Position numbers and translations under genes: made by a program. This document shows, one piece after another, positions 4,882 through 33,343 of a stretch of 34,157 bases of DNA. Numbering within the stretch: the first letter of the stretch is position 1; each line of letters begins with the position of its first letter. The notes under the pieces are model-generated. The model saw only the letters and a program-made list of their open reading frames with translations, was not told the origin of the DNA and did no database searches. The stretch is from a virus: positions 1 through 34,157 of IMG/VR virus record IMGVR_UViG_3300035633_000127; one strand, 5' to 3'.

Positions 4882-4893
4882 AATTTATCAATT

Positions 4894-5268
4894 ATGAAAA
4901 ATCGCCGCGTTACGATTACAATCCTCAACGGAGTCTCGGATTTCGACGCCTTGCAAAGGATCGCCGAGGTCGTTAAACGAGGAAAGATCTCTAAGACAAA
5001 CGAGAGAGATCATTATACATTTAAAACAGTCTGGGAGGACGGCGTTTTCGTCGAAACCCGGGCGAAATACAAATCCGAATCCGATCGATTTATCGTCGGG
5101 AGAGATCTCTCAAGACTTGAGATCCTTTGTCCCGATTGCGATAAACCTCTCGTCCTCGAGGACGGGGATCGGAATTTATTCTCTTGTAGTTGCGGAAATT
5201 ACAAGATCCAAACGAATATATTAATTAAAATCGCCTCCTCCAATGAAAAAACGAAAGGTAAAAATTAA
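4894..5268 (+). CDS. Zinc-ribbon protein, unknown function
   Basis: 124 residues. The N-terminal ~75 residues are mixed alpha/beta (RVTITILNGVSDFDALQRIA). The C-terminus carries ILCPDCDKPLVL and LFSCSCGNYKI, a C-x2-C ... C-x-C zinc ribbon with about 17 residues between pairs. The 3' end overlaps the next gene by 26 bases in another frame. Role unknown. Confidence 0.65.
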   Translation: MKNRRVTITILNGVSDFDALQRIAEVVKRGKISKTNERDHYTFKTVWEDGVFVETRAKYKSESDRFIVGRDLSRLEILCPDCDKPLVLEDGDRNLFSCSCGNYKIQTNILIKIASSNEKTKGKN

Positions 5269-9245: not shown

Positions 9246-9638
9246 ATGAAAAAATTTATTTCTCTGCTCTCGATCTTGTTTCTTTTTGCGATCGCCCCGG
9301 AGGCCGTTAACGCGGATCCCGAGGTTTTGATCGATGAGGTCTCGATCGAGAAAACCGATCTTTTTTCCTCGGACGTTGTAACAAACGTTATCGTCCAAGC
9401 GTCCCCGCTCTTGATAGTTGAGACCGCGATAAACGAGGAAAGATCTCAAAAAGTCGTATCCGTGTATGCGCAAAACAAACAATTTTCCGGAATATCCGGG
9501 GATCTCTGGTCTGAATCCGAACAAATTCTCGATATTAAGACTTTAAACGAGATTTGTTATTATAAGACCGACGGAGTTAAACCGAAAAGGACGTTATTAA
9601 AGACGAAACGATTTAAACCTCCGAGATTCGGCGTTTAA
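9246..9638 (+). CDS. Secreted protein of unknown function (moron-like)
   Basis: 130 residues. A typical Sec signal peptide (MKKFISLLSILFLFAIAPEA) has a probable cleavage after VNA (residue 23). The mature part is about 107 residues, basic at the end (KPKRTLLKTKRFKPPRFGV), with no recognised domain. A strong GAGGAGG Shine-Dalgarno sits 9 bases before the ATG, unusual here. The upstream gap holds TAACTTTA, and two hairpins, one a good terminator, follow. A self-contained transcription unit between terminase and head genes, exporting a protein, fits a moron: a gene active in the lysogen or early in infection, for example in exclusion or envelope modification. This role is inference. Confidence 0.65.
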   Translation: MKKFISLLSILFLFAIAPEAVNADPEVLIDEVSIEKTDLFSSDVVTNVIVQASPLLIVETAINEERSQKVVSVYAQNKQFSGISGDLWSESEQILDIKTLNEICYYKTDGVKPKRTLLKTKRFKPPRFGV

Positions 9639-9642
9639 TTCG

Positions 9643-9658
9643 GGCCGATAACGGCCCA
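9643..9658 (+). terminator. GC-rich hairpin after the secreted-protein gene
   Basis: GGGCCG-ATAA-CGGCCC is a perfect 6-bp stem with a 4-base loop, 4 bases after the TAA. No T-run follows, so alone it is a weak terminator or a 3'-end stabilising hairpin. Confidence 0.45.
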
Positions 9659-9698
9659 ACGGTTAATATAAACTCTCATATTTCAAAAAAACGAAAAG

Positions 9699-9726
9699 AT
9701 CCTCCCGGAACCCGGGGGGATTTTTT
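9699..9726 (+). terminator. Rho-independent terminator
   Basis: ATCCTCCCGG-AAC-CCGGGGGGAT: a 10-bp stem with one G-T wobble and a 3-base loop, then TTTTTT. It closes the secreted-protein unit. Confidence 0.85.
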
Positions 9727-9772
9727 ATTATTAACAATTCTTTAAAAGGTTTTTATTAACTTGTTTTTATCA

Positions 9773-9780
9773 TAACTTTG
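9773..9780 (+). promoter_or_regulatory. Bacteroidota-type promoter -7 element TAACTTTG
   Basis: Exact TAnnTTTG match 46 bases after the previous terminator. The -33 region is only T-rich (GGTTTTTATT). Start predicted near 9786-9788. Another hairpin terminator begins only about 55 bases downstream of that, so the expected product is a short transcript. Confidence 0.5.
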
Positions 9781-9790
9781 TATCCGTAAA

Positions 9791-9808
9791 GGCGCGCCGA
9801 TCGACGCG
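9791..9808 (+). repeat. Long-distance inverted repeat, left copy (18 bp)
   Basis: GGCGCGCCGATCGACGCG is the exact reverse complement of 16735-16752. The match stops at both flanks. Both copies are intergenic. Confidence 0.95.
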
Positions 9809-9841
9809 TCGAATAATTGATAAATTCTTTTTTCATACTCT

Positions 9842-9874
9842 CGGGAGCCCTTTTCGGTTCCCGTTTGTTTTTTT
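9842..9874 (+). terminator. Rho-independent terminator before the head operon
   Basis: CGGGAGCC-CTTTTC-GGTTCCCG: an 8-bp stem with one G-T wobble, followed by TTTGTTTTTTT. It lies upstream of the next promoter element and so ends the candidate small RNA. Confidence 0.75.
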
Positions 9875-9891
9875 CCTATTTTTTTTTATCG

Positions 9892-9899
9892 TAAATTTG
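9892..9899 (+). promoter_or_regulatory. Promoter element for the head operon, TAAATTTG
   Basis: Exact TAnnTTTG match 16 bases before the ATG at 9916. A TTTG at 9864-9867 is the best -33 candidate, though its 24-base spacing is long. It would drive the series 9916-16724. Confidence 0.55.
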
Positions 9900-9915
9900 A
9901 ACAAAATCTCGAGAT

Positions 9916-10638
9916 ATGGATTACTTTTTGCGAAAAGAGGATTTTTTCTCGGTATATCCCGAGGAGAGATTCGATAAACTGATCGAGGACGATCCCTCGA
10001 TTTGGAGAAACGCGCTCCCCGGATCGATTAAACAAATCTCCGGTTATCTTTCCGCCCGATACGACGTCGCGGCGATTTTTGCTCCCCTCAAAGAATTTAA
10101 CTCCGATAATGAATATACAGAAACCGACCGGGTTTTTTGGGTTCCTTTGGATTACTCGGAAACCGAGACGTATTCCGTCGGAGATTACGTTAATCAAGAG
10201 GGAATTATTTACAAGTGTAAAACCGACGTATTAATCCCGGAGGCGTTCGACCCGGCCAAATGGGACGAGGTCGCGGAATATAACTCCCTTTGGGAATGTA
10301 TTGCAGACGCGCCCGCCGGAACTTATCCGGACGACGAGAATTATTTCAAAGAGGGAGACGCGCGGGATCCTTGGATCGTACAAATAACGGTCGACGTCCT
10401 TTTATATCATTTGCTCGGCCGATTGAATAATATCGACGTTTCCGCGAACCGTAAAGAGCGTTACGACGGGAACGACCCGAACCAAAAGGGCGGCGCGATT
10501 GGATGGTTAAAAGAGGTCGCGAACGGATCCGTTAATCCGGATCTCCCTCTCCGAGAGGTCGAGGAGGGCGATCAAACAAATCAAAAAATTATTTGGGGCG
10601 ACGCCTCCGAAACGAAAAATAAAAATAGTGTTTTTTAG
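9916..10638 (+). CDS. Mu gp36-like (DUF1320) neck protein with inserted carbohydrate-binding-like module
   Basis: 240 residues. The DUF1320/gp36 pattern is visible as KQISGYLSARYDV (residues 39-51) and DPWIVQITVDVLLYHLLGRLNN ... RKERYD (151-184). In Mu-like phages this protein sits in the head-tail connector region. Between these parts, residues about 62-150 hold an extra segment, ETYSVGDYVNQEGIIYKCK ... FDPAKWDEV ... NSLWECIADAP. It resembles chitin-binding-type-3/CBM5-12 modules (Y-x-x-G-D-x-V ... G-x-x-Y-x-C ... P-x-x-W) in roughly one and a half copies. This may make a surface-exposed, glycan-binding decoration. First gene of the head operon. Confidence 0.65.
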   Translation: MDYFLRKEDFFSVYPEERFDKLIEDDPSIWRNALPGSIKQISGYLSARYDVAAIFAPLKEFNSDNEYTETDRVFWVPLDYSETETYSVGDYVNQEGIIYKCKTDVLIPEAFDPAKWDEVAEYNSLWECIADAPAGTYPDDENYFKEGDARDPWIVQITVDVLLYHLLGRLNNIDVSANRKERYDGNDPNQKGGAIGWLKEVANGSVNPDLPLREVEEGDQTNQKIIWGDASETKNKNSVF

Positions 10639-10867
10639 ATCCCGAAAAGATAAGATCCGGAACGCGTATCGATTCGCGATCCAATCCCTCGAGGAAAATC
10701 TCGGGGCGTCCGTCTTTTGGAACCCTGTTAAAGACGTTTTTTTTATTACGTATCTCGGCCAAACATACAAGAAAACCGCCGAGGAAATGGAGAAATTTAA
10801 CGCCAAATTAAAAGATAAACTCGACGGAGATATCGAGGATCTCGTCGAAAAATTTACTTTATATTAA
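10628..10867 (+). CDS. Small protein between gp36-like and portal genes, unknown
   Basis: 79 residues from a GTG at 10628, overlapping the gp36-like gene by 11 bases. No upstream ATG is available. Sequence is charged and helical with LGASVFWNPVKDVFFITYLGQTYKKT near the middle. It probably has a virion or assembly role by position; no family recognised. Confidence 0.6.
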   Translation: MFFRSRKDKIRNAYRFAIQSLEENLGASVFWNPVKDVFFITYLGQTYKKTAEEMEKFNAKLKDKLDGDIEDLVEKFTLY

Positions 10868-10871
10868 GACT

Positions 10872-12140
10872 ATGGAGATAAAATTCAATTTACGAAACCC
10901 GTTTAAACGCCGCGAGAGAGAGATCCCTCCGGTTATCGATGAGGAGAAACCCGACGACGGGATTAATAAGAAGTTAACCGCAAATATAAACGTCCGGATC
11001 CGCAAATCTTTAAAAGATTGGGCCGAGGCGGTTAACGACGCCGAGAATCCGTTAAACGAGGACGGTGTCCGTCTGCAAGATCTTTTCGATATTTATCGTA
11101 ATATCGAACTCGATCCGCATATTACCGCCCTCGTCGAAACCATTTATAACGGCATAAGTCAAACGCCTTTTGAAATCGAAAACGACGAGGATTCGGATAT
11201 CTTTAAAAAGGCTTGGTTTCTCGACTTTATTCGTTACGTCTTAAAGTGTGAAAATTGGGGACTCGGAGCGATTAATTTTATCTTTGATCCCTTGAAAGAC
11301 TCCGTAAAGGTCGAGGATATCGATCGATGGTATTTAAGGCCCGAACAAAAGGGATTTTCTTACGAAATGGACAAAGAACAAGCGGACGAGTATTTCGATC
11401 GGGATCCCCTCCAAAAACATACGATTTTACTCGATAACGACGGACTCGGTCGTTTTAATCACATCGCAAAACGTTTTATTATGAAACGGGAGGTCGTTCA
11501 ATTCTGGGCGATCTTTAACGAACTGTTTACGACTCCGTATTTTATCGTCGAGACCGATATAAACAACGATAAACATCGTTTGAACTTGATCGAATGGCTC
11601 GAGGAGAGAAAACATTCGAGTTTCGCCGTTGTCGGCCATGGAGATAAATTAACGGCCGTCTCCGGAAATACTCGCGGTTTCGATTCGTACGAAAAATTCG
11701 AAAAGGCCTCAAATGAGGATATGAGTAAAGCATTTCTCGGGGGGACGATGGTTCTCGACGACGGATCCTCGAGATCTCAATCCGAAGTTCACGAAAGGAA
11801 TTTAAACTCGTTCGTCCAAGCGAAAAGACAGTATATCGAGTTTTTGATTAACGAAAAGGTTATCCCGATCCTTTCGTATTACGGTTTAATCAATTCGAAT
11901 GCCGTCTTTAAGTGGAATTTATCGCACCAATACGGGCCCAAAGATTGGGCCGAGATCCTCTCGAAAATCGGAGGGATCTTTAAATTTGATGAGGAGGAGA
12001 TCTCCCAAAAACTCGGAATTACGGTCGAGGAAAAACCCGCGCCGGCTCCGACGATCCCCCAAGAAAATACGAACGTTCTCGATCAAAAGACTATAAAAAA
12101 CAGAATTTCCGAACGAATTAAATCTCTTTACGATGCTTGA
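10872..12140 (+). CDS. Portal protein (Mu gp29/DUF935-like)
   Basis: 422 residues. The region LFDIYRNIELDPHITALVETIYNGI (residues 71-95) and the wing signature KAFLGGTMVLDDGSSRSQSEVHERN (286-310) match the gp29/DUF935 portal pattern, where the latter corresponds to LGQTLTT ... G-S-x-A-x-x-x-V-H. Forms the dodecameric DNA gate at the capsid vertex and binds terminase. Next to the gp36-like gene and, after an insertion, the MuF gene. The C-terminal ~35 residues are a Pro-rich tail. Confidence 0.85.
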   Translation: MEIKFNLRNPFKRREREIPPVIDEEKPDDGINKKLTANINVRIRKSLKDWAEAVNDAENPLNEDGVRLQDLFDIYRNIELDPHITALVETIYNGISQTPFEIENDEDSDIFKKAWFLDFIRYVLKCENWGLGAINFIFDPLKDSVKVEDIDRWYLRPEQKGFSYEMDKEQADEYFDRDPLQKHTILLDNDGLGRFNHIAKRFIMKREVVQFWAIFNELFTTPYFIVETDINNDKHRLNLIEWLEERKHSSFAVVGHGDKLTAVSGNTRGFDSYEKFEKASNEDMSKAFLGGTMVLDDGSSRSQSEVHERNLNSFVQAKRQYIEFLINEKVIPILSYYGLINSNAVFKWNLSHQYGPKDWAEILSKIGGIFKFDEEEISQKLGITVEEKPAPAPTIPQENTNVLDQKTIKNRISERIKSLYDA

Positions 12141-12990
12141 ATATAATCCCAGATCCGAACAAGAGATCCTCGACGATCTCGTTACGAATAAAGAATCCCG
12201 CCCGGAACTCGACGATCTCGATAATCCGTCCGGGGCGGCGGTTTGGTATAACCTTTTGGCCGTCGTCTCGACCGAAATCGCTCAACTTGAGGATAACGGA
12301 GTCTCTCTTTACAATCAAATCGAGGAGAGGGCTCAAGAGATCCCCGTCGGTACTTTGTTTTGGTACGCGGCCGAGACTCTTAATTATCAGCATGGAGACA
12401 ACCTCGAAATAATTAACGGGATCCCGCAATATGCCATAATCGACGAGTCGAAAAAAATAATAAAGGCGTCCGCCGCCGTTGAGCAATCCGGACAAATTAT
12501 AATAAAATGCGCGAAAGAGGATCTTTCGGGAGATCTTGAGCCTTTGGATCCGGCCGAACTTGCCGGAGTCGTACAATATTGGGTCGAGAAACGATTCGCG
12601 GGATCCGCGTTATCTGTTTTCTCAACAAATCCCGACCTCGTCGCGGCATACTTGAGGATCGAGATCGACGGCCAAGTTTTGAGCCTTGACGGAGAATCCC
12701 TCGCGAATCCGGGGACTTATCCGGTCGAGGATGCAATTATCCAATATTACAAGGATCTCGATTTCGGAGGACGTTTCTCCGTTATGAGTTTAATCGATGC
12801 GGTTCAATCCGTTAACGGGACGGCAAACACGGCCCCGGAGAGCGTTTTAATCACTCCTGACGGAGGATCCCGATCCCCGATCGAAGTTCTCGCCGATGAG
12901 GATCAAATTTTCGTAACCGTTGCGGGATATTGCTCCGAGGATCCGGCAAATATTTTGAGAGATACGTTAACTTATTACATACGACAATAA
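12133..12990 (+). CDS. Baseplate J-like (Mu gp47-type) protein
   Basis: 285 residues. Called from the pattern AVVSTEIAQLEDNGVSLYNQ (residues about 43-62), VGTLFWYAAETLNYQHGDNLEI and SKKIIKASAAVEQSGQIIIK, which resembles Bacteroidota versions of baseplate wedge J. Its start overlaps the portal stop by 8 bases. Baseplate genes normally follow the tape measure; here this one lies between portal and MuF, while the W-like gene at 25177 is not followed by a J gene. It is therefore probably the J homologue of this virion, relocated. The family call is moderate. Confidence 0.55.
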   Translation: MLEYNPRSEQEILDDLVTNKESRPELDDLDNPSGAAVWYNLLAVVSTEIAQLEDNGVSLYNQIEERAQEIPVGTLFWYAAETLNYQHGDNLEIINGIPQYAIIDESKKIIKASAAVEQSGQIIIKCAKEDLSGDLEPLDPAELAGVVQYWVEKRFAGSALSVFSTNPDLVAAYLRIEIDGQVLSLDGESLANPGTYPVEDAIIQYYKDLDFGGRFSVMSLIDAVQSVNGTANTAPESVLITPDGGSRSPIEVLADEDQIFVTVAGYCSEDPANILRDTLTYYIRQ

Positions 12991-12991
12991 A

Positions 12992-13519
12992 ATGAACTGT
13001 AATTTTTTTAATATAAACGTCGAGGCAATCTTTTTGCGATTGGTTCCGTATTTCTGGCTAAAAAACCCGGAGACGTTCGAAAACCGGACGCAATGGATCG
13101 AATATTTAAAGACCGTCGCGAGCGGTTTTTCCTATTATGCCGGGGATATGCTCGTCCAATGTCAAACCCTCCAAGAGTTTTTATTAAATTCCGGTCAACA
13201 TTTGGCTCTCGAGGACAAGTTAAACCGAAATTTCGATCCGATCGGAAACGGGATTTATATCGAGGAGGAAAATTTCGCATATCAAAATAAGGTTTGGTAT
13301 CTCGACCCGGAGACGGATCCGATTAATAAGGTTTGGTATATTGACGGAGAAACAAATCCCGCTCTCGAGATCTGGTATCTCGACGGAGAGGAGATCGACG
13401 CCGTTAATTTTACGGTTTACGTCCCGACGGCCGTTTATAACGTGTATCGGGATCAAATTAACGCGACTTTAAAAAATTACGTCGTAAATGGTTATACTTG
13501 GGATTTAATCCCTTTTTAA
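12992..13519 (+). CDS. Baseplate/tail protein, gpI-like by position, with internal repeats
   Basis: 175 residues, starting 1 base after the J-like gene. The N-terminus (FFNINVEAIFLRLVPYFWLK ... WIEYLKTVASGF ... LALEDKLNRNFD) is helical. The middle holds three 13-residue repeats at residues 99-137: NKVWYLDPETDPI, NKVWYIDGETNPA and LEIWYLDGEEIDA. The C-terminus (NFTVYVPTAVYNVYRDQINATLKNYVVNG) resembles the end of tail proteins of this kind. Probably links the wedge to the fibre-like product of the next gene. Confidence 0.5.
   Translation: MNCNFFNINVEAIFLRLVPYFWLKNPETFENRTQWIEYLKTVASGFSYYAGDMLVQCQTLQEFLLNSGQHLALEDKLNRNFDPIGNGIYIEEENFAYQNKVWYLDPETDPINKVWYIDGETNPALEIWYLDGEEIDAVNFTVYVPTAVYNVYRDQINATLKNYVVNGYTWDLIPF
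13286..13402 (+). repeat. 39-bp tandem repeat, 3 degenerate copies, coding
   Basis: Three 39-base units starting at 13286, 13325 and 13364 share the core (AATAAG)GTTTGGTAT. They encode W-Y-L/I-D-G/P-E repeats in the gpI-like protein. Synonymous and non-synonymous differences show the duplication is not recent. Confidence 0.8.
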
Positions 13520-13529
13520 ATACTGTATT

Positions 13530-14324
13530 ATGAATGATAAAATAACTTTTCCGGGCGGCGAACCCAATATGAAGGAAAACGATTTCCTCATTAAACAGCA
13601 AGCGAACCGAGATTTTATAAACGCATTTCTCGGGGATATGGACGGAGATCCGGCAATAATTACGGGGATCGTTGCGGATCCTTGGACTCCCGGGAATCCG
13701 TTAATAATTACGCAAGGCGGATACATCTTTTTAAACGATGAGGTTATCCAAGTCGACGCGGGAACGTATTCGAACGTCAGGAGTAACGCGTTTTGGATAT
13801 TCGTAAAAATAACAACTTACGATCCTTTCGGGGATAAGACGTTCCAAAACGGGATACCGAGACAAACCCGACCGATTTATCGAGCCGAGCCGATTAACGT
13901 CGCGAGCGTCGGATCCGGAGATCTTGACGTTTTGAACGGTTTTCGATGGAATCAAATCGGGCCTTGGGAAAATGTTAATATTAACGTCGGGATCTTTGAG
14001 GATTATCCTCTCTCTACTATGAAAATACGGCATTATAAAGGATATATTGAGTTATTCGGATATATTGACGGTCGAGGATCTCCCGGGTCGGGAAGTTGGA
14101 TCTTTGAAATCCCGGTCGGTTATCGTGATTTTTTACCGGATCCGACGATCTTTCAAATGAATTACGACTCGGGTCTCGGAACATCGGACGGAGTTATCCG
14201 CCTGTTTTATGTTGACACGGCGAATAATTACAAGGTTCGTTATTTGGATAATGACTCGATTTCCGACGTCGATTTATGGCATATTAACGTAAGGATCCCG
14301 TATTATAACAAACCCGTTTTATAA
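13530..14324 (+). CDS. Tail fibre-like virion protein
   Basis: 264 residues. The N-terminus (ITFPGGEPNMKENDFLIKQQ) and a beta-rich body with GNPLIITQGGYIFLNDEVIQVDAG resemble the baseplate-proximal parts of fibre or appendage proteins. The C-terminal half (MKIRHYKGYIELFGYIDGRG ... GSWIFEIPVGYRDFLPDP) looks like the repeating beta 'needle/tip' domain found at fibre ends. It follows the J/I-like pair, as a fibre gene would. Receptor binding is inferred, not shown. Confidence 0.55.
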   Translation: MNDKITFPGGEPNMKENDFLIKQQANRDFINAFLGDMDGDPAIITGIVADPWTPGNPLIITQGGYIFLNDEVIQVDAGTYSNVRSNAFWIFVKITTYDPFGDKTFQNGIPRQTRPIYRAEPINVASVGSGDLDVLNGFRWNQIGPWENVNINVGIFEDYPLSTMKIRHYKGYIELFGYIDGRGSPGSGSWIFEIPVGYRDFLPDPTIFQMNYDSGLGTSDGVIRLFYVDTANNYKVRYLDNDSISDVDLWHINVRIPYYNKPVL

Positions 14325-15166
14325 TGGCTAAAGACTTAACACCGACAAAATACAAGTATACGGACGAACTTATCGAGGGAGTTTATTTCGGAATTATCTC
14401 CGTTAATGATCTCCCGGAGAGTTTATTCGAGTTTACGTATCTTAATTCGATGGGAGGAGTCGTTCTCGGTTACGGGGATGTTTCGGAGGCTGTTTTCAAG
14501 GTCAAGAGATTACGCGATTATAAGTTAAATATGTCGTTTTTCTCGGGCGCGAAAACTTGGCAAGAGGTAAACGAACTCTCTTTGAATATGTTCGACGCAA
14601 ACGGCCAAAAGATCGGGTTTTCGAAGTTTAAAAAAATCGCTCTGGGAATTAACGCGAATTATAACGTTAATTTTCTGAAAACGGAATTAAATACGGGTTT
14701 CGGAGTCGCTCAAGGCGCGCGGCATTGGGACGATATCGAGGAAAACAAAGAACTCCTCCCGATGTTACAATATCAAACGATCGGAGATTCGCACGTCCGC
14801 CCCGAACATGCAAGTTTTGATAATATTATTAAACCGGTCGACTCGGATTTTTGGTCGTCTCACATGCCGCCGAACGATTGGGGCTGTCGATGTACTGTTA
14901 TACAACTTGAAAAGGGAAAGGAGACGGATCTCGACGAACATCTCAAAAAATATAACGCATCCGTCCCGGAGGATCAAAGGGTCGAGAGTCTCGAGAATAC
15001 GTCGAAGATCTTTAAACAGAATCCCGGGAAAACCGATTATATTTATCCGAGTTCGCATCCGTATTATGATATCCCGAAAGAATTCCAAAAGGCCGCCGAG
15101 GATAATTTCGGATTTACGACTCCCTCAAATGAGGAACTTTTAAAACATACGCAAAAAATTAAATAA
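14324..15166 (+). CDS. MuF-like minor head protein
   Basis: 280 residues. The signature is LPMLQYQTIGDSHVRPEHAS ... DFWSSHMPPNDWGCRCTVIQL at residues 145-195. The D-S-H/R-x-R-P-x-H and P-x-x-W-G-C-R-C elements are diagnostic of the Mu gpF/SPP1 gp7 family, minor capsid proteins associated with the portal that are ejected or help assembly. The start overlaps the previous stop (TAATG). No toxin domain is fused, and the C-terminus is short. Confidence 0.88.
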   Translation: MAKDLTPTKYKYTDELIEGVYFGIISVNDLPESLFEFTYLNSMGGVVLGYGDVSEAVFKVKRLRDYKLNMSFFSGAKTWQEVNELSLNMFDANGQKIGFSKFKKIALGINANYNVNFLKTELNTGFGVAQGARHWDDIEENKELLPMLQYQTIGDSHVRPEHASFDNIIKPVDSDFWSSHMPPNDWGCRCTVIQLEKGKETDLDEHLKKYNASVPEDQRVESLENTSKIFKQNPGKTDYIYPSSHPYYDIPKEFQKAAEDNFGFTTPSNEELLKHTQKIK

Positions 15167-15700
15167 ATGGCAAAATTAACCATCGCGGGGAAACTCCCGT
15201 CCGTTGACGATTTCCGAACGTCCGCCCCAAAAAGGGCGACTCTCCTCGGAACCGTTGTTTTTGACGATATAACATTCCCGGCGGGGACGTATATTAATAA
15301 CGACGGAGACGCGGTTAATTATGCCGAATTGATCCTCCTCTCGATACAAGTCGTCGTATCCAAACAAAAGAATATTATCGAGACTCCCGTTTCAGGAGTC
15401 GACGGAACGATCAAAGAATACATTTCGGGAGGCGATTACATGGTCTCAATATCGGGAAAGATAACACAATCCGCGTTAAACGTATTCCCGGCGGACGATA
15501 TCGATAATTTTGTCGAGATTGAGAACATCGACGACTCGATCCCGATCGATTCGAAATTATTAAACGAGTTTTTCAACGTGTTTAACGTTGTAATAAAAAA
15601 GATCTCTTTGTCAACGATCCCCGGATCAATAAACGAGGTCGATATAAATATCGAGGCGGTCTCGGACTTTGAACTCGATTTGAATAACTTTTTATTATGA
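15167..15700 (+). CDS. DUF6046-like phage protein
   Basis: 177 residues. LLGTVVFDDITFPAG ... YAELILLSIQVVVSKQKNIIETPVSGVDGTIKEYISGGDYMVSISG matches a pattern I associate with DUF6046 proteins, found in the structural block of Bacteroidota phages. Beta-rich; probably a virion or tail-attachment component. Immediately follows MuF and overlaps the morphogenesis gene by 4 bases (ATGA). Exact role unknown. Confidence 0.65.
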   Translation: MAKLTIAGKLPSVDDFRTSAPKRATLLGTVVFDDITFPAGTYINNDGDAVNYAELILLSIQVVVSKQKNIIETPVSGVDGTIKEYISGGDYMVSISGKITQSALNVFPADDIDNFVEIENIDDSIPIDSKLLNEFFNVFNVVIKKISLSTIPGSINEVDINIEAVSDFELDLNNFLL

Positions 15701-16110
15701 TAAGACGAAAAGGATCCTTTCGAATAAAGGAAAAAAAGGTAAAATTTACGAGATTTAAAAAGGAGGTTCCGATTATTCTCGCGAACGAGTCTCGTAATCA
15801 TTTCGTCGAGGGTTTCAGGAAAGGAGGAGGACAAACCGACCGATCTCGGGGCGGATGGACTCCCAGAAAATCGAGGAGACAACCCTCTCGAGCGATCCTT
15901 GTCCTCTCCGGGGCTCTCCGGAGGGATATACAAGTTTTATTCTCTCAATGGAGTAAAATAATCGTCGGATCGATTAACCTCCCGTATGCGAGGAGGCATA
16001 ACGAGGGACTCGCGGGAATGCCTCAAAGAGAATTTATCGGAGAGTCGAGATCTCTCAAGAGAAAACATTTAAAAATTATTTTACGTAACCTTGTAATCCG
16101 TTTAAAATGA
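15697..16110 (+). CDS. Phage virion morphogenesis protein (Mu gpG / Phage_tail_S-like)
   Basis: 137 residues, very basic. The core ILVLSGALRRDIQVLF ... YARRHNEGLAGMPQREFIGES (residues 67-112) is the family signature L-x-x-S-G-x-L ... Y-A-x-x-x-x-x-G-x-x-x-x-x-P-x-R-x-F-L/I-G. In P2 and Mu this protein acts at tail completion or head-tail joining. ATGA overlap with the preceding gene. Confidence 0.85.
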   Translation: MIRRKGSFRIKEKKVKFTRFKKEVPIILANESRNHFVEGFRKGGGQTDRSRGGWTPRKSRRQPSRAILVLSGALRRDIQVLFSQWSKIIVGSINLPYARRHNEGLAGMPQREFIGESRSLKRKHLKIILRNLVIRLK

Positions 16111-16724
16111 GATCGATTAAATCGCATTTATATTTATTTGTTAAAACGCTCCTCCTCGGGGGGACGTATACCGATATCGAGGAAAACGATCACGATTTCG
16201 AGGGGCTCCTCGGATCCGACGGCAAACCCGAAATTAAACATTTCGAACCGTATAACTCCGAGTTAACAAATTTTATTAACAAGGAAAATTATCCGGTTCC
16301 GGCCGTATTTTTTGAGTATCCGACCACGGATCCCGAGGTCGAATCGACTCAATTAACGACCTCCGAGACCAATTATCGCCCCAATTTTAAGGATCGAGCA
16401 ACGTTCGCCCTCCATTTAATAACGACCAGAGGAGTAACGTCCGGGAACGTCGAGGACGATTATCTCGATCTCTTGGATCTCGCCTCTCGAGTCGTTAATA
16501 AATTGCGTTTCCGGTCAATCGCCGGGATCGATAATATTATGAAAACAAACGAGACGGAGGACAACGATAACGAGGTTTTAAAAGATTGGATAATCTCATT
16601 TGAGGCCGTCGTCCTCGAATGCGGGGAAACGGATCTCGTCGACGCCAACGATCCCGAGGTTAATCCTTTGGCTCCCGTAGAACAAGAGATCGAAGTAACC
16701 ATATTGCAACCGCCGATAACATAA
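16107..16724 (+). CDS. Tail terminator/completion-like protein (Mu gp37-type by position)
   Basis: 205 residues, overlapping the morphogenesis gene by 4 bases. VPAVFFEYPTTDPEVESTQLT ... ATFALHLITTRG ... LLDLASRVVNKLRF resembles tail terminator proteins: beta strands, a central helix carrying the DLLDLAxxV segment, and an acidic tail. Last gene of the head/neck operon. Called by fold pattern and position. Confidence 0.55.
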   Translation: MRSIKSHLYLFVKTLLLGGTYTDIEENDHDFEGLLGSDGKPEIKHFEPYNSELTNFINKENYPVPAVFFEYPTTDPEVESTQLTTSETNYRPNFKDRATFALHLITTRGVTSGNVEDDYLDLLDLASRVVNKLRFRSIAGIDNIMKTNETEDNDNEVLKDWIISFEAVVLECGETDLVDANDPEVNPLAPVEQEIEVTILQPPIT

Positions 16725-16734
16725 AAACGGGATC

Positions 16735-16752
16735 CGCGTCGATCGGCGCGCC
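16735..16752 (+). repeat. Long-distance inverted repeat, right copy (18 bp)
   Basis: CGCGTCGATCGGCGCGCC is the exact reverse complement of 9791-9808. It lies 10 bases after the stop of the tail-terminator-like gene and 63 bases before the prohead protease ATG. Confidence 0.95.
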
Positions 16753-16764
16753 CTGTTAAATCTA

Positions 16765-16797
16765 AAATTTGACAAAATAAATTAAAAATTGTATTAT
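16765..16797 (+). promoter_or_regulatory. Candidate promoter for the protease-capsid-tail operon
   Basis: A TTTG followed by about 20 A/T-rich bases and TATTATTG (one mismatch to TAnnTTTG), roughly 20 bases before the ATG at 16816. It lies just downstream of the 18-bp inverted repeat copy. Confidence 0.4.
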
Positions 16798-16815
16798 TGA
16801 CCAAAACCCGGAAAA

Positions 16816-18012
16816 ATGGACTTAAAATTCACAAAAATTGTAAACGAGGACGACGGAAAAAAGGTCGTCTCGATGTATATCTTTGGGATAATCGGTTACG
16901 ATGTTATCGGAGAGGAGTTCGCCCGAGAGATTAAATATCTTTACGAGCAATTAAAAATCGATAACCTCGATATTTATATTAACTCTCCCGGAGGATCCGT
17001 TATCTCCGGTTACTCGATAATCTCCTCGATAAGGCTCGCCGAAAAATCGGGAGTCGAAATAACGATGTATAACGTCGGAGTCGCGTACTCCATGGGCGGA
17101 ATAATTCTCGTCTCGGGAAAAAATCGGATCGCTTGGGATTACTCAACGTTAATGATACACGATCCAAGTTTCGATAATAAAGACGACGAGGATCTCTCCG
17201 ATTCAGATCGCAAGTTTTTGCAAGAGATCGGAAACTCTCTCGCCGATATAATCTCCGGAAATACGGGGATCGAAATCGACGAGGTTAAAAATATGATGCG
17301 AGTCGAGACCGTGTTTTCGGCCAAAGAGGCCAAGTCTCGGAACTTTGTCGACTCGATCGAGAAAACAGGCCGTAAAGTCGACCTCGGGAATTGTAAAACG
17401 AATCTCGATAAAATGGTCGCTTTTTCAAATATTTTTTACAATCAAAATAATTTTATTAACGAAAAAATTTTAAAGATGGAAAGAATCGCGAAATTTTTAA
17501 ATCTCTCGCCGGCGGCGTCCGAGGATATGATCCTCGACGAGTTAAAACGCAAGTTTGACGAACTCGAAAAGGCTAAAACGTTGAGAGACGAAAACAAAAC
17601 CTTGACCGAAAAGGTCAAAACTTTGGAGGACAAAATCGTCAAAAACGAGGAGTCCGCCAAAAAAGAAAAGGCGATCGCTCTCGTTAACAAAGCGAAAGAG
17701 GACGGATTAATCCCCGATGAGGAGTCCGTCGTTAACGATTGGGTCGAAAACGCCGTCGAGAACTACGAAAAGACCGAAAGGATCTTGCAGAAAATGAAAC
17801 CCGTTACAACGTCGATTAACAACAAATTTGAAAAATCCGACAAGAAAATGAAAGGAAAAAAAGACGAACTCGTCAATAAATACGAGGAGTTAATCGATAA
17901 TCCCGAGGAGATGGATCGTTTTGCGACCCAGAATCCCGAGGAGTTCGAAAAAATGGAGAACGCTTGGAACGCCGCAAATGAAAAACGCTTTTCGGTCGAG
18001 TTCGAAAAGTAA
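16816..18012 (+). CDS. ClpP-type prohead protease fused to scaffold region
   Basis: 398 residues. Residues 15-185 are a ClpP-like serine protease: INSPGGSVISGYSI (oxyanion strip, about 56-68), AYSMGG with Ser92, LMIHDP with His115, and VFSAKEAKSRNFVDS near the end. The third triad residue (Asp in the family motif R-D-x-F/W-x-S/T-A) aligns with Glu164 here. Residues 210-398 are highly charged and coiled-coil (DELEKAKTLRDENKTLTEKV), ending in a basic-acidic tail, as expected for an internal scaffold released by the protease. Directly precedes the major capsid gene. Confidence 0.85.
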   Translation: MDLKFTKIVNEDDGKKVVSMYIFGIIGYDVIGEEFAREIKYLYEQLKIDNLDIYINSPGGSVISGYSIISSIRLAEKSGVEITMYNVGVAYSMGGIILVSGKNRIAWDYSTLMIHDPSFDNKDDEDLSDSDRKFLQEIGNSLADIISGNTGIEIDEVKNMMRVETVFSAKEAKSRNFVDSIEKTGRKVDLGNCKTNLDKMVAFSNIFYNQNNFINEKILKMERIAKFLNLSPAASEDMILDELKRKFDELEKAKTLRDENKTLTEKVKTLEDKIVKNEESAKKEKAIALVNKAKEDGLIPDEESVVNDWVENAVENYEKTERILQKMKPVTTSINNKFEKSDKKMKGKKDELVNKYEELIDNPEEMDRFATQNPEEFEKMENAWNAANEKRFSVEFEK

Positions 18013-27739: not shown

Positions 27740-28510
27740 ATGCAAGTTGAATATTTTCCAAGAAAAAACGATCCTCTCGAGATTGCTCGAGGGTTTCAGC
27801 CCGATATAATTACGGCCTTTATTGCCGCGTATCAATACGATTTCGATCAGGTTTATAATACTCTTTGGGATATCAAGGCGGATTATACCTTTTCGGATAC
27901 TGCAAATATTAATACTCTGGTCGGATCCGATAACGCGGACGCCGGGAAAGTTTTCCGAATTATCGGCCTTAATGAGAATTGGGAGAGAGTAACTCGTTTC
28001 GTCGGTTGCGCCGGGACGACTCCGGTTAACTTTGATCCCTTGTTAAGGGTCGAGAGCGTTCGCCAAGTCGTCGGAGCGGCGAAAAATGTCGGAACGATCG
28101 CGGTTTATATCGACGGAGGAGATCCGGGAGAGGATGAGGATTTACGCGCCTTTATTATTGAGGGTTACGGACGTACGCAAATGGGAGTCTTTTCAATCCC
28201 GGCCGGATGGGAGGGATATTTTAATCAGTTCGTCGGACGAGTCCGTCGGAGAAATACGACCGGAGACGTTTCGGTCGATATTTGGGCCGAGGTTCGTTTG
28301 TTCGGAGGAGATTTCGTTCGCGAAATGCCTCTCGTAATGCACAACGAGGGAGGACAGCAAGGCGTCGCGGCGGATAATTATTTCAAGATCCCGGAAAAAT
28401 CCGATATTCGGATCCAAGTCGTTAGCGAGGTGCAAAATAACGCCACGATCGGCGCGGATCTAAGCGGATATATCGCAAAAATTAATCCTTTAGTTAATCA
28501 ATTTTTATAA
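27740..28510 (+). CDS. Virion protein after the fibre gene, unknown role
   Basis: 256 residues. The N-terminal half is helical/aromatic (FAIAAYQYDFDQVYN-type segment) and the C-terminal half is a beta sandwich (GTIAVYIDGGDPGED ... FSIPAGWEGYFNQFVGRVRRRN ... VDIWAEVRLFGGDFVREMP ... IPEKSDIRIQVVSEVQNNAT). The IPEKSDIRI-type segment and the AVYID/PAGWEGYF pattern recall phage receptor-binding or capsid-cement 'jelly-roll' proteins. It lies between the fibre gene and the membrane protein genes. Not assigned to a family. Confidence 0.5.
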   Translation: MQVEYFPRKNDPLEIARGFQPDIITAFIAAYQYDFDQVYNTLWDIKADYTFSDTANINTLVGSDNADAGKVFRIIGLNENWERVTRFVGCAGTTPVNFDPLLRVESVRQVVGAAKNVGTIAVYIDGGDPGEDEDLRAFIIEGYGRTQMGVFSIPAGWEGYFNQFVGRVRRRNTTGDVSVDIWAEVRLFGGDFVREMPLVMHNEGGQQGVAADNYFKIPEKSDIRIQVVSEVQNNATIGADLSGYIAKINPLVNQFL

Positions 28511-30520: not shown

Positions 30521-30544
30521 AATTGATAAATTTTAAATTCGAAA

Positions 30545-30577
30545 CAAAGTTAAACGTTTTTTGTTAAAAAACAACAA
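30545..30577 (-). promoter_or_regulatory. Minus-strand promoter of the small-gene operon
   Basis: Read on the minus strand: TTGTTG at 30577-30572, about 19 bases, then TAACTTTG at 30552-30545. This is one of the best Bacteroidota-type promoter matches in the window. Confidence 0.65.
30556..30572. promoter_or_regulatory. Inverted repeat inside the minus promoter, operator candidate
   Basis: GTTTTTT-GTT-AAAAAAC is a perfect 7-bp dyad with a 3-base centre, lying in the spacer of the minus-strand promoter. Position and symmetry suit a small repressor such as the XRE protein at 31212. Confidence 0.4.
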
Positions 30578-30602
30578 TAAGGCGAAAAAAAATAACGATA
30601 TA

Positions 30603-30635
30603 TTGATAAAATAATTTTTTTGTTTAGTAAATTTA
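30603..30635 (+). promoter_or_regulatory. Plus-strand early promoter
   Basis: TTG at 30603-30605, 22 bases, then TAAATTTA at 30628-30635 (one mismatch to TAnnTTTG). It would drive the series from 30669. Confidence 0.45.
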
Positions 30636-30668
30636 GCTTAATTTTACATCGAATTTAAAAACAAGAGA

Positions 30669-30992
30669 ATGAAAAAAGAATTACAGACCGTCAAGGGGAA
30701 ACCCTTACGCAAGGCCCGGAGATTTCACGCCACGGGCCAAATTTTGACGATCTCGGACGATTTCCGATCGTTTGGGATTGAATGCTCCCGGGAGGATATT
30801 AAAGGCCTCTTAACGCCTAAAACCGACAAAATCAAACTATCGATTAATGTCAGTTATGAAAATTCGATCTTGTTACGTCATTGGATCAAGGTCGGAGATA
30901 CCGTTTATCTCGATCTCGTTTATCTTGTATTTTATGAGGGGAACGGAGACGAGACAAGTTCAAAGATCTATTTTAAAAACTTCTTAAAATGA
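30669..30992 (+). CDS. First gene of the right early operon, unknown function
   Basis: 107 residues. Probable OB-like or other beta barrel: RRFHATGQILTISDDFRSFGI, KIKLSINVSYENSI, GDTVYLDLVYLVFYEG. No catalytic motif. The leader AAAAACAAGAGAATGAAAA matches that of the gene at 6601. Overlaps the next gene by 4 bases (ATGA). Confidence 0.6.
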   Translation: MKKELQTVKGKPLRKARRFHATGQILTISDDFRSFGIECSREDIKGLLTPKTDKIKLSINVSYENSILLRHWIKVGDTVYLDLVYLVFYEGNGDETSSKIYFKNFLK

Positions 30993-31228
30993 AAAAAAAA
31001 GAGTTAAAGGACTTAACTCCGAAAGATCTCTCATTCGAGGAACTCGTTTTGTTAAAAATTAAGATCCGGAGGAACCGCCCCAAGTTAAAGAAAAAACTAA
31101 AAATGGAGGCGGATCTCCTTATCGAAATGATTAACGACGAACTCGAGGAGAGGGGATTCGGGAAAGAGGCCGAATTAAAACAGTCTATTACAAACCCAAA
31201 ACCGCGACAAGATGAGAGAAAAAATTAA
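30989..31228 (+). CDS. Small basic helical protein, unknown function
   Basis: 79 residues. Lys/Glu-rich: LTPKDLSFEELVLLKIKIRR, LKKKLKMEADLLIEMINDEL. The 3' end overlaps the XRE gene by 17 bases. No family recognised. Confidence 0.55.
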   Translation: MKKKELKDLTPKDLSFEELVLLKIKIRRNRPKLKKKLKMEADLLIEMINDELEERGFGKEAELKQSITNPKPRQDERKN

Positions 31229-31394
31229 AATCGCAATGATTAAACAAGAGATCTCGTTCCTTGAGCTCGCCGAGGCGACCGGGATACGTTATCAAACGTT
31301 AACCGCATTTATTAACGGAGGGAAAAATACGTTTTTTTCAAACTTTGAAAAAATATGTAATATCTTAGATCTCGAATTATGCGAAAGGAATTAA
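31212..31394 (+). CDS. XRE/Cro-type helix-turn-helix regulator
   Basis: 60 residues, a bare HTH domain: KIAMIKQEISFLELAEATGIRYQTLTAFING, with the helix-turn-helix at about 16-36 and a closing helix FEKICNILDLEL. Likely a dimeric repressor acting on the divergent promoters 0.6 kb upstream; the dyads at 30556-30572 and the 30531/30649 pair are candidate targets. No integrase is seen, so whether it controls lysogeny or only early gene timing is open. Confidence 0.8.
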   Translation: MREKIKIAMIKQEISFLELAEATGIRYQTLTAFINGGKNTFFSNFEKICNILDLELCERN

Positions 31395-31423
31395 TCAATT
31401 ATTCACATTAAAAACTTAAAAAA

Positions 31424-32626: not shown

Positions 32627-33343
32627 ATGGGATTAAACAAACAATCGGGAAACATGTATACTTTTGTCTCCCATACTTGGAACCCTCTCGGGGGACGTTG
32701 TCCGCATAATTGCGGATATTGTTCGACCGGTTCGTTACGGAACCGGTTTCCCAATTTAAAAGATAAATATTCGGGCCCGCCTCGGATAATTGAGTCCGAG
32801 TTAATCTCCCTCGGATCCGGAAAGTTTATCTTTGTTTGCGCTCAAAATGATCTATTCGCGGAAAACATCCCGGCGGAAATTATCGAGAGGATCCTCTCTC
32901 ATTGCCGAGAATTCCCCGAAAACCGTTATTTATTGCAGACCAAAAACCCGGAAAGGATCCTCGATTATCTCGAGGAGATCCCGGACGGATCCGTTATCGC
33001 GACGACGATCGAATCCTCGCGACAATATCTCGAAATTATGGACGATTGCCCGCCTCCGATTAATCGCGCGGTCGCTTGTCATAAGATCGCGAATTATTTC
33101 TCGGTTATGGTTACGGTCGAACCCGTTCTCGATTTTAATCTCGAGTTATTCTCGGAGATTTTGAGACTCTCTCGAGCGTATCAAATTAACATCGGGGCGG
33201 ATTCGGGAAATAATAACCTCCCGGAACCGAACAAAGAGAAACTCGCGAGGTTAATCGAGAGGATCCCCGAGTTTGCAAGCGTAAATTTAAAATCGAATTT
33301 ACGTCGAATTACTTATCCGAACTATAATAAACGTTATGAATAA
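32627..33343 (+). CDS. DUF5131-like (phage Gp37/Gp68) radical SAM-type protein
   Basis: 238 residues. HTWNPLGGRCPHNCGYCSTG contains C-x3-C-x2-C (Cys25, Cys29, Cys32), the iron-sulfur motif of radical SAM enzymes, preceded by the H-T-W-N-P element typical of the DUF5131/Gp37Gp68 family. Later elements fit the half-barrel: GKFIFVCAQNDLFAENIPAE, RYLLQTKNPERIL, GSVIATTIESS, FSVMVTVEPVLDFN. The short length equals the compact members. Substrate unknown; RNA or nucleotide modification is a guess from its place among early genes. Confidence 0.8.
   Translation: MGLNKQSGNMYTFVSHTWNPLGGRCPHNCGYCSTGSLRNRFPNLKDKYSGPPRIIESELISLGSGKFIFVCAQNDLFAENIPAEIIERILSHCREFPENRYLLQTKNPERILDYLEEIPDGSVIATTIESSRQYLEIMDDCPPPINRAVACHKIANYFSVMVTVEPVLDFNLELFSEILRLSRAYQINIGADSGNNNLPEPNKEKLARLIERIPEFASVNLKSNLRRITYPNYNKRYE

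Follow-up and report, generated by a model that had tools for sequence, protein, structure and literature searches.

The window analyzed here is the 34,157-base stretch of the IMG/VR virus record IMGVR_UViG_3300035633_000127, which carries an 18-nt sequence twice in opposite orientation, once ahead of a head/neck operon (arm 1, 9791-9808) and once ahead of a protease-capsid-tail operon (arm 2, 16735-16752). Its late genes matched PHROG families of terminase, head-tail adaptor, portal, head morphogenesis, protease and sheath proteins, with a weak match for the major head protein (4.8e-4), and its tail sheath shares 32-34% identity with that of Flavobacterium phages. On these grounds the window probably derives from a contractile-tailed phage of a Bacteroidota host. 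The "gaps" referred to below are the stretches between 52 hand-chosen open reading frames (ORFs). The features surrounding the two arms are as follows.

9700-9719, plus strand: terminator-like hairpin with T-tail at the end of the terminase operon (terminator scan)
9773-9780, plus strand: candidate promoter P1, TAACTTTG, of the Bacteroidota -7 type TAnnTTTG (box scan)
9786-9872, plus strand: candidate small RNA of about 87 nt, with a 5' hairpin, an AU-rich linker and a terminator, both ends being predicted
9791-9808, plus strand: arm 1, with RNA stem GGCGCG/CGCGUC and loop CCGAUCGA (exact repeat and folding)
9842-9863, plus strand: putative intrinsic terminator ending the candidate small RNA, with 8 pairs, 6 of them GC, followed by TTTGTTTTTT (terminator scan)
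9892-9899, plus strand: promoter-like box P2, TAAATTTG, 24 nt upstream of the head gene, matched by an exact box at a similar position in 8 of the 9 relatives compared
9916-10638, plus strand: first gene of the head/neck operon, with a weak PHROG match to a head-tail adaptor (4.6e-05)
16107-16724, plus strand: last gene of the head/neck operon, matching a PHROG of unknown function
16729-16753, plus strand: intercistronic mRNA hairpin containing arm 2, outer stem GGG/CCC and inner stem CGCGUC/GGCGCG
16735-16752, minus strand: arm 2, whose minus-strand reading is the arm 1 sequence
16769-16799, plus strand: protease promoter-like site TTGACA-17-TATTAT (11 of 12 positions), the top score in the promoter scan
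16816-18012, plus strand: head maturation protease (PHROG match)

The exact 18-nt reverse complementarity claimed for these positions in a preliminary description of this DNA was recomputed and confirmed: arm 1, GGCGCGCCGATCGACGCG, is the exact reverse complement of 16735-16752, and GGCGCGCC was found at two places in the window, exactly the two arms. Both are intergenic, as had been described, arm 1 lying in the gap 9639-9915 and arm 2 in the gap 16725-16815, where it begins 10 nt past the stop codon of the gene at 16107-16724 and 64 nt ahead of the next start codon. Each arm is structured as a quasi-palindrome, CGCG-C-CGATCG-A-CGCG, extended by GG on one side. Perfect palindromes of 10-14 nt are in excess in the window as a whole (94 of 10 nt against 59-81 simulated, and 11 of 14 nt against 4.5-6.8), with no excess at 6-8 nt; a relative of the phage, contig L023, falls below its simulated counts at 6-12 nt.

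The same description had put the number of such matches expected by chance at about 0.01, which proved too low. In 60 Markov simulations per order (window ends excluded), inverted pairs of at least 18 nt were expected anywhere in the window 0.03 (order 1) to 0.25 times (order 5), and the length by itself is only moderately surprising over the whole window. A longer inverted pair, 24 nt exact and AT-rich, is found at 4878-4901/30513-30536, where it covers the translation starts of opposite-strand genes (4894 plus, 30520 minus); a 19-nt direct repeat, 6589/30657, stands at the starts of 6601 and 30669, and the phage seems to reuse translation-start sequences. When the simulations were confined to pairs between two different gaps (17 gaps, 2,088 bases, 1,500 simulations per model), 0-2 simulations of each model, and 5 of all 9,000, produced pairs of at least 18 nt and any composition, and among pairs with a GC content of at least 60% a length of 18 nt was reached in 0 and of 16 nt in 2 of 9,000. 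This restriction was chosen after the pair had been seen, which renders the gap figures somewhat flattering, and with alternative gap boundaries and within-gap pairs admitted, inverted matches of any composition reached up to 20-24 nt (400 simulations per order). The length, the GC-rich composition and the gap-to-gap placement (0 of 9,000) nevertheless disfavor an easy accident, and the element is real, probably non-random, specific to its lineage and placed in a conserved setting. The 18-mer also produced 20 exact matches in IMG/VR; every one of these loci has 61-70% GC, unlike the window, and the matches were dropped as a lead and taken as coincidence.

The proposal of a small-RNA-like locus at arm 1 gained support from the promoter-like box and the terminator-like hairpin that this stretch appears to have of its own. 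The candidate unit is flanked by two terminator-like hairpins. Between 9600 and 17000 the scan listed 17 sites of this kind, where shuffles gave 12.4 +/- 3.9; the number alone is therefore no evidence, and that at 9842-9863 is the richest of them in GC pairs. No ORF of at least 60 codons reaches into the unit, which is overlapped by three ORFs of 23-26 codons, and Rfam 15 gave no match in the window at the gathering score.

The placement of both arms at the left borders of the two operons was likewise borne out, with the boxes there kept in related phages. A capsid protein scan of viral contigs returned L023, and alignments with capsid, TerL and portal proteins brought the relatives to 13 distinct syntenic contigs (L023, L024, L025, L027, L028, L031, L032, L033, L035, L037, L038, L039 and L040); L026, L029, L030, L034 and L036 are additional segments of contigs in this list. 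The portal and sheath proteins, each scanned singly against viral contigs, found no relatives, and neither did genome scans; among phage records, the portal, sheath and capsid proteins matched distantly, and the protease and the DNA of 9600-17000 had no match. The nearest capsids are 61-65% identical to that of the window, and the loci of L028, L032, L033, L037 and L038 show no capsid gene, their TerL being 40-52% identical.

The box TAnnTTTG is described as the Bacteroidetes promoter sequence (PMC6414381). Counting the window, 9 of 10 phages have an exact copy 11-30 nt ahead of the head gene, L032 being the miss, and 6 of 10 (L023, L025, L027, L028, L035 and L040) have one ahead of the protease. 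In the other four, again with the window among them, the protease box has one mismatch, as in TATTATTG at 16792-16799, a degree of likeness that is common in these AT-rich stretches and therefore weak evidence. At whole-sequence rates an exact box is expected about 0.04-0.09 times per 80 nt, and somewhat more often in AT-rich gaps. The start positions used are approximate for the head gene of L027, L028 and L033 and for the protease of L039 and L040; the head comparison leaves out L031, L035, L037 and L038 (alignment short of the gene start) and the protease comparison L032, L033, L037 and L038 (contigs ending before the protease). The promoter scan gave 25 promoter-like sites against 11.2 +/- 3.9 in shuffles, with the protease site scoring highest. 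Together, both operon borders look like conserved late promoters, with arm 1 seemingly opening an extra unit at the first of them. At the second border no plus-strand terminator was listed in the scan of 9600-17000; arm 2 was ruled out in that role, as it has no downstream T-run. On the minus strand its hairpin is followed by GTTTTT and could still serve as a terminator, yet the chosen flanking ORFs are all on the plus strand.

Folding and pairing predictions were then compared for the RNA copies of the arms, termed site 1 and site 2. Site 1 is predicted to form a 6-bp stem with the loop CCGAUCGA, and the 90 nt of 9786-9875 fold at -24.8 kcal/mol (z -2.07). The hairpin loops of sites 1 and 2 (8 and 4 nt) are mutually complementary, as in loop-loop antisense pairs, and the complementarity to the sense-compatible target is exact over 18 nt. 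The 26-nt 5' hairpin was scanned for duplexes against both strands of the window, 9780-9880 omitted, along with 25 shuffled versions. Its best partner was site 2, at -43.0 kcal/mol, followed by a place at -34.8, whereas the best duplexes of the shuffled hairpins averaged -32.5 +/- 1.8 (n = 25; lowest -37.4 kcal/mol). When the own folds of both partners were counted, site 2 bound at -21.9 and the best of 221 sampled plus-strand pieces at -18.7 (mean -6.1), which leaves site 2 the best of 222 places, with a narrower lead than in the plain duplex scan.

A second target for the AU-rich linker was considered as well. Its complements comprise 14 nt at 4882-4895 and at 30669-30682, and 27 nt at 85% at 31378-31404. 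The candidate was dropped because its best duplex (-24.3 kcal/mol) compares with -21.9 +/- 1.6 for 25 shuffles (lowest -25.8) and because inverted pairs of at least 14 nt and any composition are expected 0.76-0.90 times in the gaps.

The DNA thus holds complementarity in a compatible orientation, a promoter-like box, a terminator-like hairpin and boxes at both operon starts. Our tentative reading of this anatomy, held at less than even confidence, is that a phage-encoded small RNA pairs with the hairpin between the head and capsid cistrons. The RNA transcribed from P1 would begin about 5 nt ahead of arm 1, end at 9842-9863 and measure about 87 nt, and its 5' hairpin would display the loop CCGAUCGA. 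The head-operon mRNA would carry the exact complement within the hairpin just past its last stop codon, and a loop-to-loop contact could grow into an 18-bp duplex at the junction of the head/neck and protease-capsid-tail messages. Such a duplex may invite cleavage or halt read-through, and the two messages would in this way be separated or timed. The making of the small RNA, its pairing and the effect of that pairing are what we infer here. As regards what an RNA pair would need, the opposite orientation and the full identity are seen, and the transcription of both sites is likely from the gene order.

Several observations weigh against an antisense RNA. P1 has no TTTG or TTG 18-22 nt upstream and hence no -33 box, and the same applies to P2 at that spacing. 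A minus-strand ATG ORF of 26 codons (9756-9836), rich in basic residues, spans arm 1 and runs out through P1, and the arm 1 stretch beneath it could have a coding history. Both sites sit inside hairpins and are not exposed, and the 131-nt mRNA region of site 2 is about as stable as its shuffles (z -0.43). The candidate small RNA would also pair with itself through its self-complementary loop (-14.4), and for the whole 87-nt RNA, with accessibility left out of the calculation, site 2 ranked only fifth (-52.8 against -57.4 for the best). The complementarity ends on either side of the 18 nt.

The relatives add to these points. Neither arm was found in the examined stretches of the 13: the 18-mer occurred in 0 of 5 whole records (up to 3 mismatches), 0 of 6 loci (up to 4) and 0 of 8 further loci (up to 4), with L035 and L039 examined as parts of longer contigs, and with L032, L033, L037 and L038 ending before the protease and thus short of site 2. 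The longest complement between the two gaps measured 5-10 nt in five relatives against 18 in the window, which gives no sign of a like pair used by a related phage. Given 0 of 13 relatives with the element and only short complements in five, the 18-nt pair is, on what was seen, confined to this lineage. In L023 and L025 other ORFs intervene between terL and the head gene, and L024, L027 and L028 leave little or no gap there. The gap ahead of the protease, which in the window contains arm 2, holds a small ORF in L027 (18010-18174), L028 (9078-9230) and L025 (8595-8738). The small ORFs of L027 and L028 are alike. L023 carries an inverted repeat of its own, 101 nt at 95% identity (1422-1522/20295-20395), far longer than the 18-nt pair; this repeat connects the region ahead of its head gene with a place about 18.8 kb downstream.

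Besides an antisense RNA, paired DNA operators come into question, doubtful as we consider them to be. A dimeric regulator would bind CGCGnCGATCGnCGCG at both operon borders, and the inverted orientation would have no meaning; its binding at about +13 of P1 would block that promoter, and from about 60 bp upstream of the predicted protease transcription start it could activate. The dyad within the 16-nt CGCGnCGATCGnCGCG has 7 of 8 symmetric pairs, as expected of a palindromic site, and the identity of the arms is nearly centered on it. Such a dyad occurs in about 0.4% of random 18-mers from the window, which is nonetheless rich in dyads generally (44 against 26-34 simulated). The symmetric pattern, with up to 3 mismatches, had 9 matches against 3.1 +/- 1.6 in shuffles, a count reached in 0 of 100, and a Cro/C1-type helix-turn-helix protein is encoded at 31212-31394 (Pfam). 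The pattern is, however, exact and in gaps at the two arms only; the other seven matches (1-3 mismatches, the nearest at 28441) lie inside genes. No match with up to 3 mismatches falls in any other gap, including 30521-30668, which at 18% GC likely holds the promoters of divergent genes. The arms also differ in their geometry relative to their promoters. The two copies agree, moreover, at the asymmetric positions of the dyad and at two further bases outside it on one side, which a palindromic operator leaves unexplained and would not need, and complementarity would; this favors RNA pairing. Antisense RNA and paired operators are thus both tenable, and the anatomy leans slightly toward the former.

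It is unlikely, in our view, that a scrap of GC-rich palindromic DNA was simply duplicated or captured in this lineage, either functionless or serving only as hairpins that stabilize RNA at its 5' and 3' ends. The element was not found in the stretches of the 13 relatives examined, cargo is gained and lost between terL and the head gene (as the other ORFs in L023 and L025 illustrate), palindromes of 10-14 nt are in excess in the window, and an 18-nt pair is not very rare over its whole length (0.03-0.25 expected). A copied segment would, however, likely show homology past the 18 nt, which is found at neither end, and both copies lie within promoter regions.

Since the element is nearly palindromic, its two plus-strand hairpins are nearly alike (CGCGyCGAUCGrCGCG, 14 of 16 identical), and a phage or host protein might recognize them in the same sense, allowing RNA polymerase to pass the 9842 terminator toward the head operon and to read through once more at the junction, or marking a processing site. 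We regard this as quite unlikely. Site 1 stands at the predicted transcript start directly ahead of the terminator-like hairpin, site 2 at the junction to the next operon, and both sites fold. HK022 put and lambda nut also place an RNA hairpin near the transcript start ahead of a terminator; what defines those elements is their sequence together with demonstrated antitermination, whereas site 1 resembles them in its position. P2, lying past the terminator, could already drive the head operon, the loops differ in size (8 and 4), PHROG or Pfam scans of 28 of the 52 genes revealed no recognizable antiterminator, and the exact 18-nt complementarity would be superfluous.

A panhandle in a double-stranded DNA phage, in which one head-operon mRNA of about 7 kb joins its own ends by the 18-bp GC-rich duplex, strikes us as very improbable. 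P1 transcripts passing 9842 would carry arm 1 about 5 nt inside their 5' end, with arm 2 lying about 10 nt past the last stop codon; the panhandle would protect the message or mark complete copies, and terminated copies would act as a competing small RNA. Sites for inversion or packaging proteins, as also suggested earlier, are barely credible and went unsupported: only the inverted orientation speaks for them, but the segment to be inverted is the portal/neck operon, and its gene order and strand are constant in the relatives as far as the contigs reach, no Pfam recombinase match was found in the 20 proteins scanned out of 52, and both arms lie downstream of terL, whereas packaging sites are usually found at or ahead of the small terminase gene.

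Known phage antisense RNAs with phage mRNA as their target provide a frame for the favored small RNA, and those treated in the part of the source consulted include OOP, sar, c4 and STnc6030, which there mostly act on immunity, lysis and superinfection genes, STnc6030 acting on tailspike mRNA (PMC12197685). The c4 RNA of P1 and P7 is similar in that its complementary sequences likely lie in RNA loops and that it targets the phage's own ant mRNA, but it pairs around the ant ribosome binding site in an immunity role, whereas the complement here lies past a stop codon between structural operons (PMC12197685). The sar RNA of P22 is likewise small (68/69 nt), is listed as acting in trans and pairs with phage mRNA, yet it blocks the start of antirepressor translation and has no intercistronic target (PMC12197685). 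OOP of lambda, at 77 nt, is antisense to phage mRNA and drives its degradation by RNase III; it is listed as cis, whereas the unit proposed here stands 6.9 kb from its complement and would pair over only 18 nt (PMC12197685). STnc6030 of prophage BTP1 shares with the candidate a structural (tailspike) mRNA as its target and differs in its length of 786 nt, its cis action, its pairing within a gene and its role in superinfection exclusion (PMC12197685). Within a narrow literature search, limited to the portions of the sources at hand, we found no phage antisense RNA directed at a head/capsid junction.

Some further features of the window lie outside the two borders or next to them. Between terL and the small-RNA unit, 9246-9638 encodes a 130-aa protein with a start that by eye resembles a signal peptide, without a PHROG or Pfam match. 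Positions 1-480 hold ten 27-nt tandem repeats that correspond to a 9-residue protein repeat (AHANTSG and two variable residues) in an ORF open at the contig start. The gene at 32627-33343 encodes a phage protein that matches DUF5131 above the cut-off and Radical_SAM below it. At the contig end, 33991-34157, a 62-nt exact inverted repeat forms a hairpin with 43 nt between its arms, which is either an assembly fold-back or a genuine hairpin end.

The recurring TAnnTTTG boxes ahead of both late operons should be helpful for annotating this phage group. If the candidate RNA does pair as proposed, the phage would aim an RNA of its own at the junction of its head and capsid messages and thereby control the supply of structural proteins, and such RNA control would then operate in a phage of a probable Bacteroidota host.

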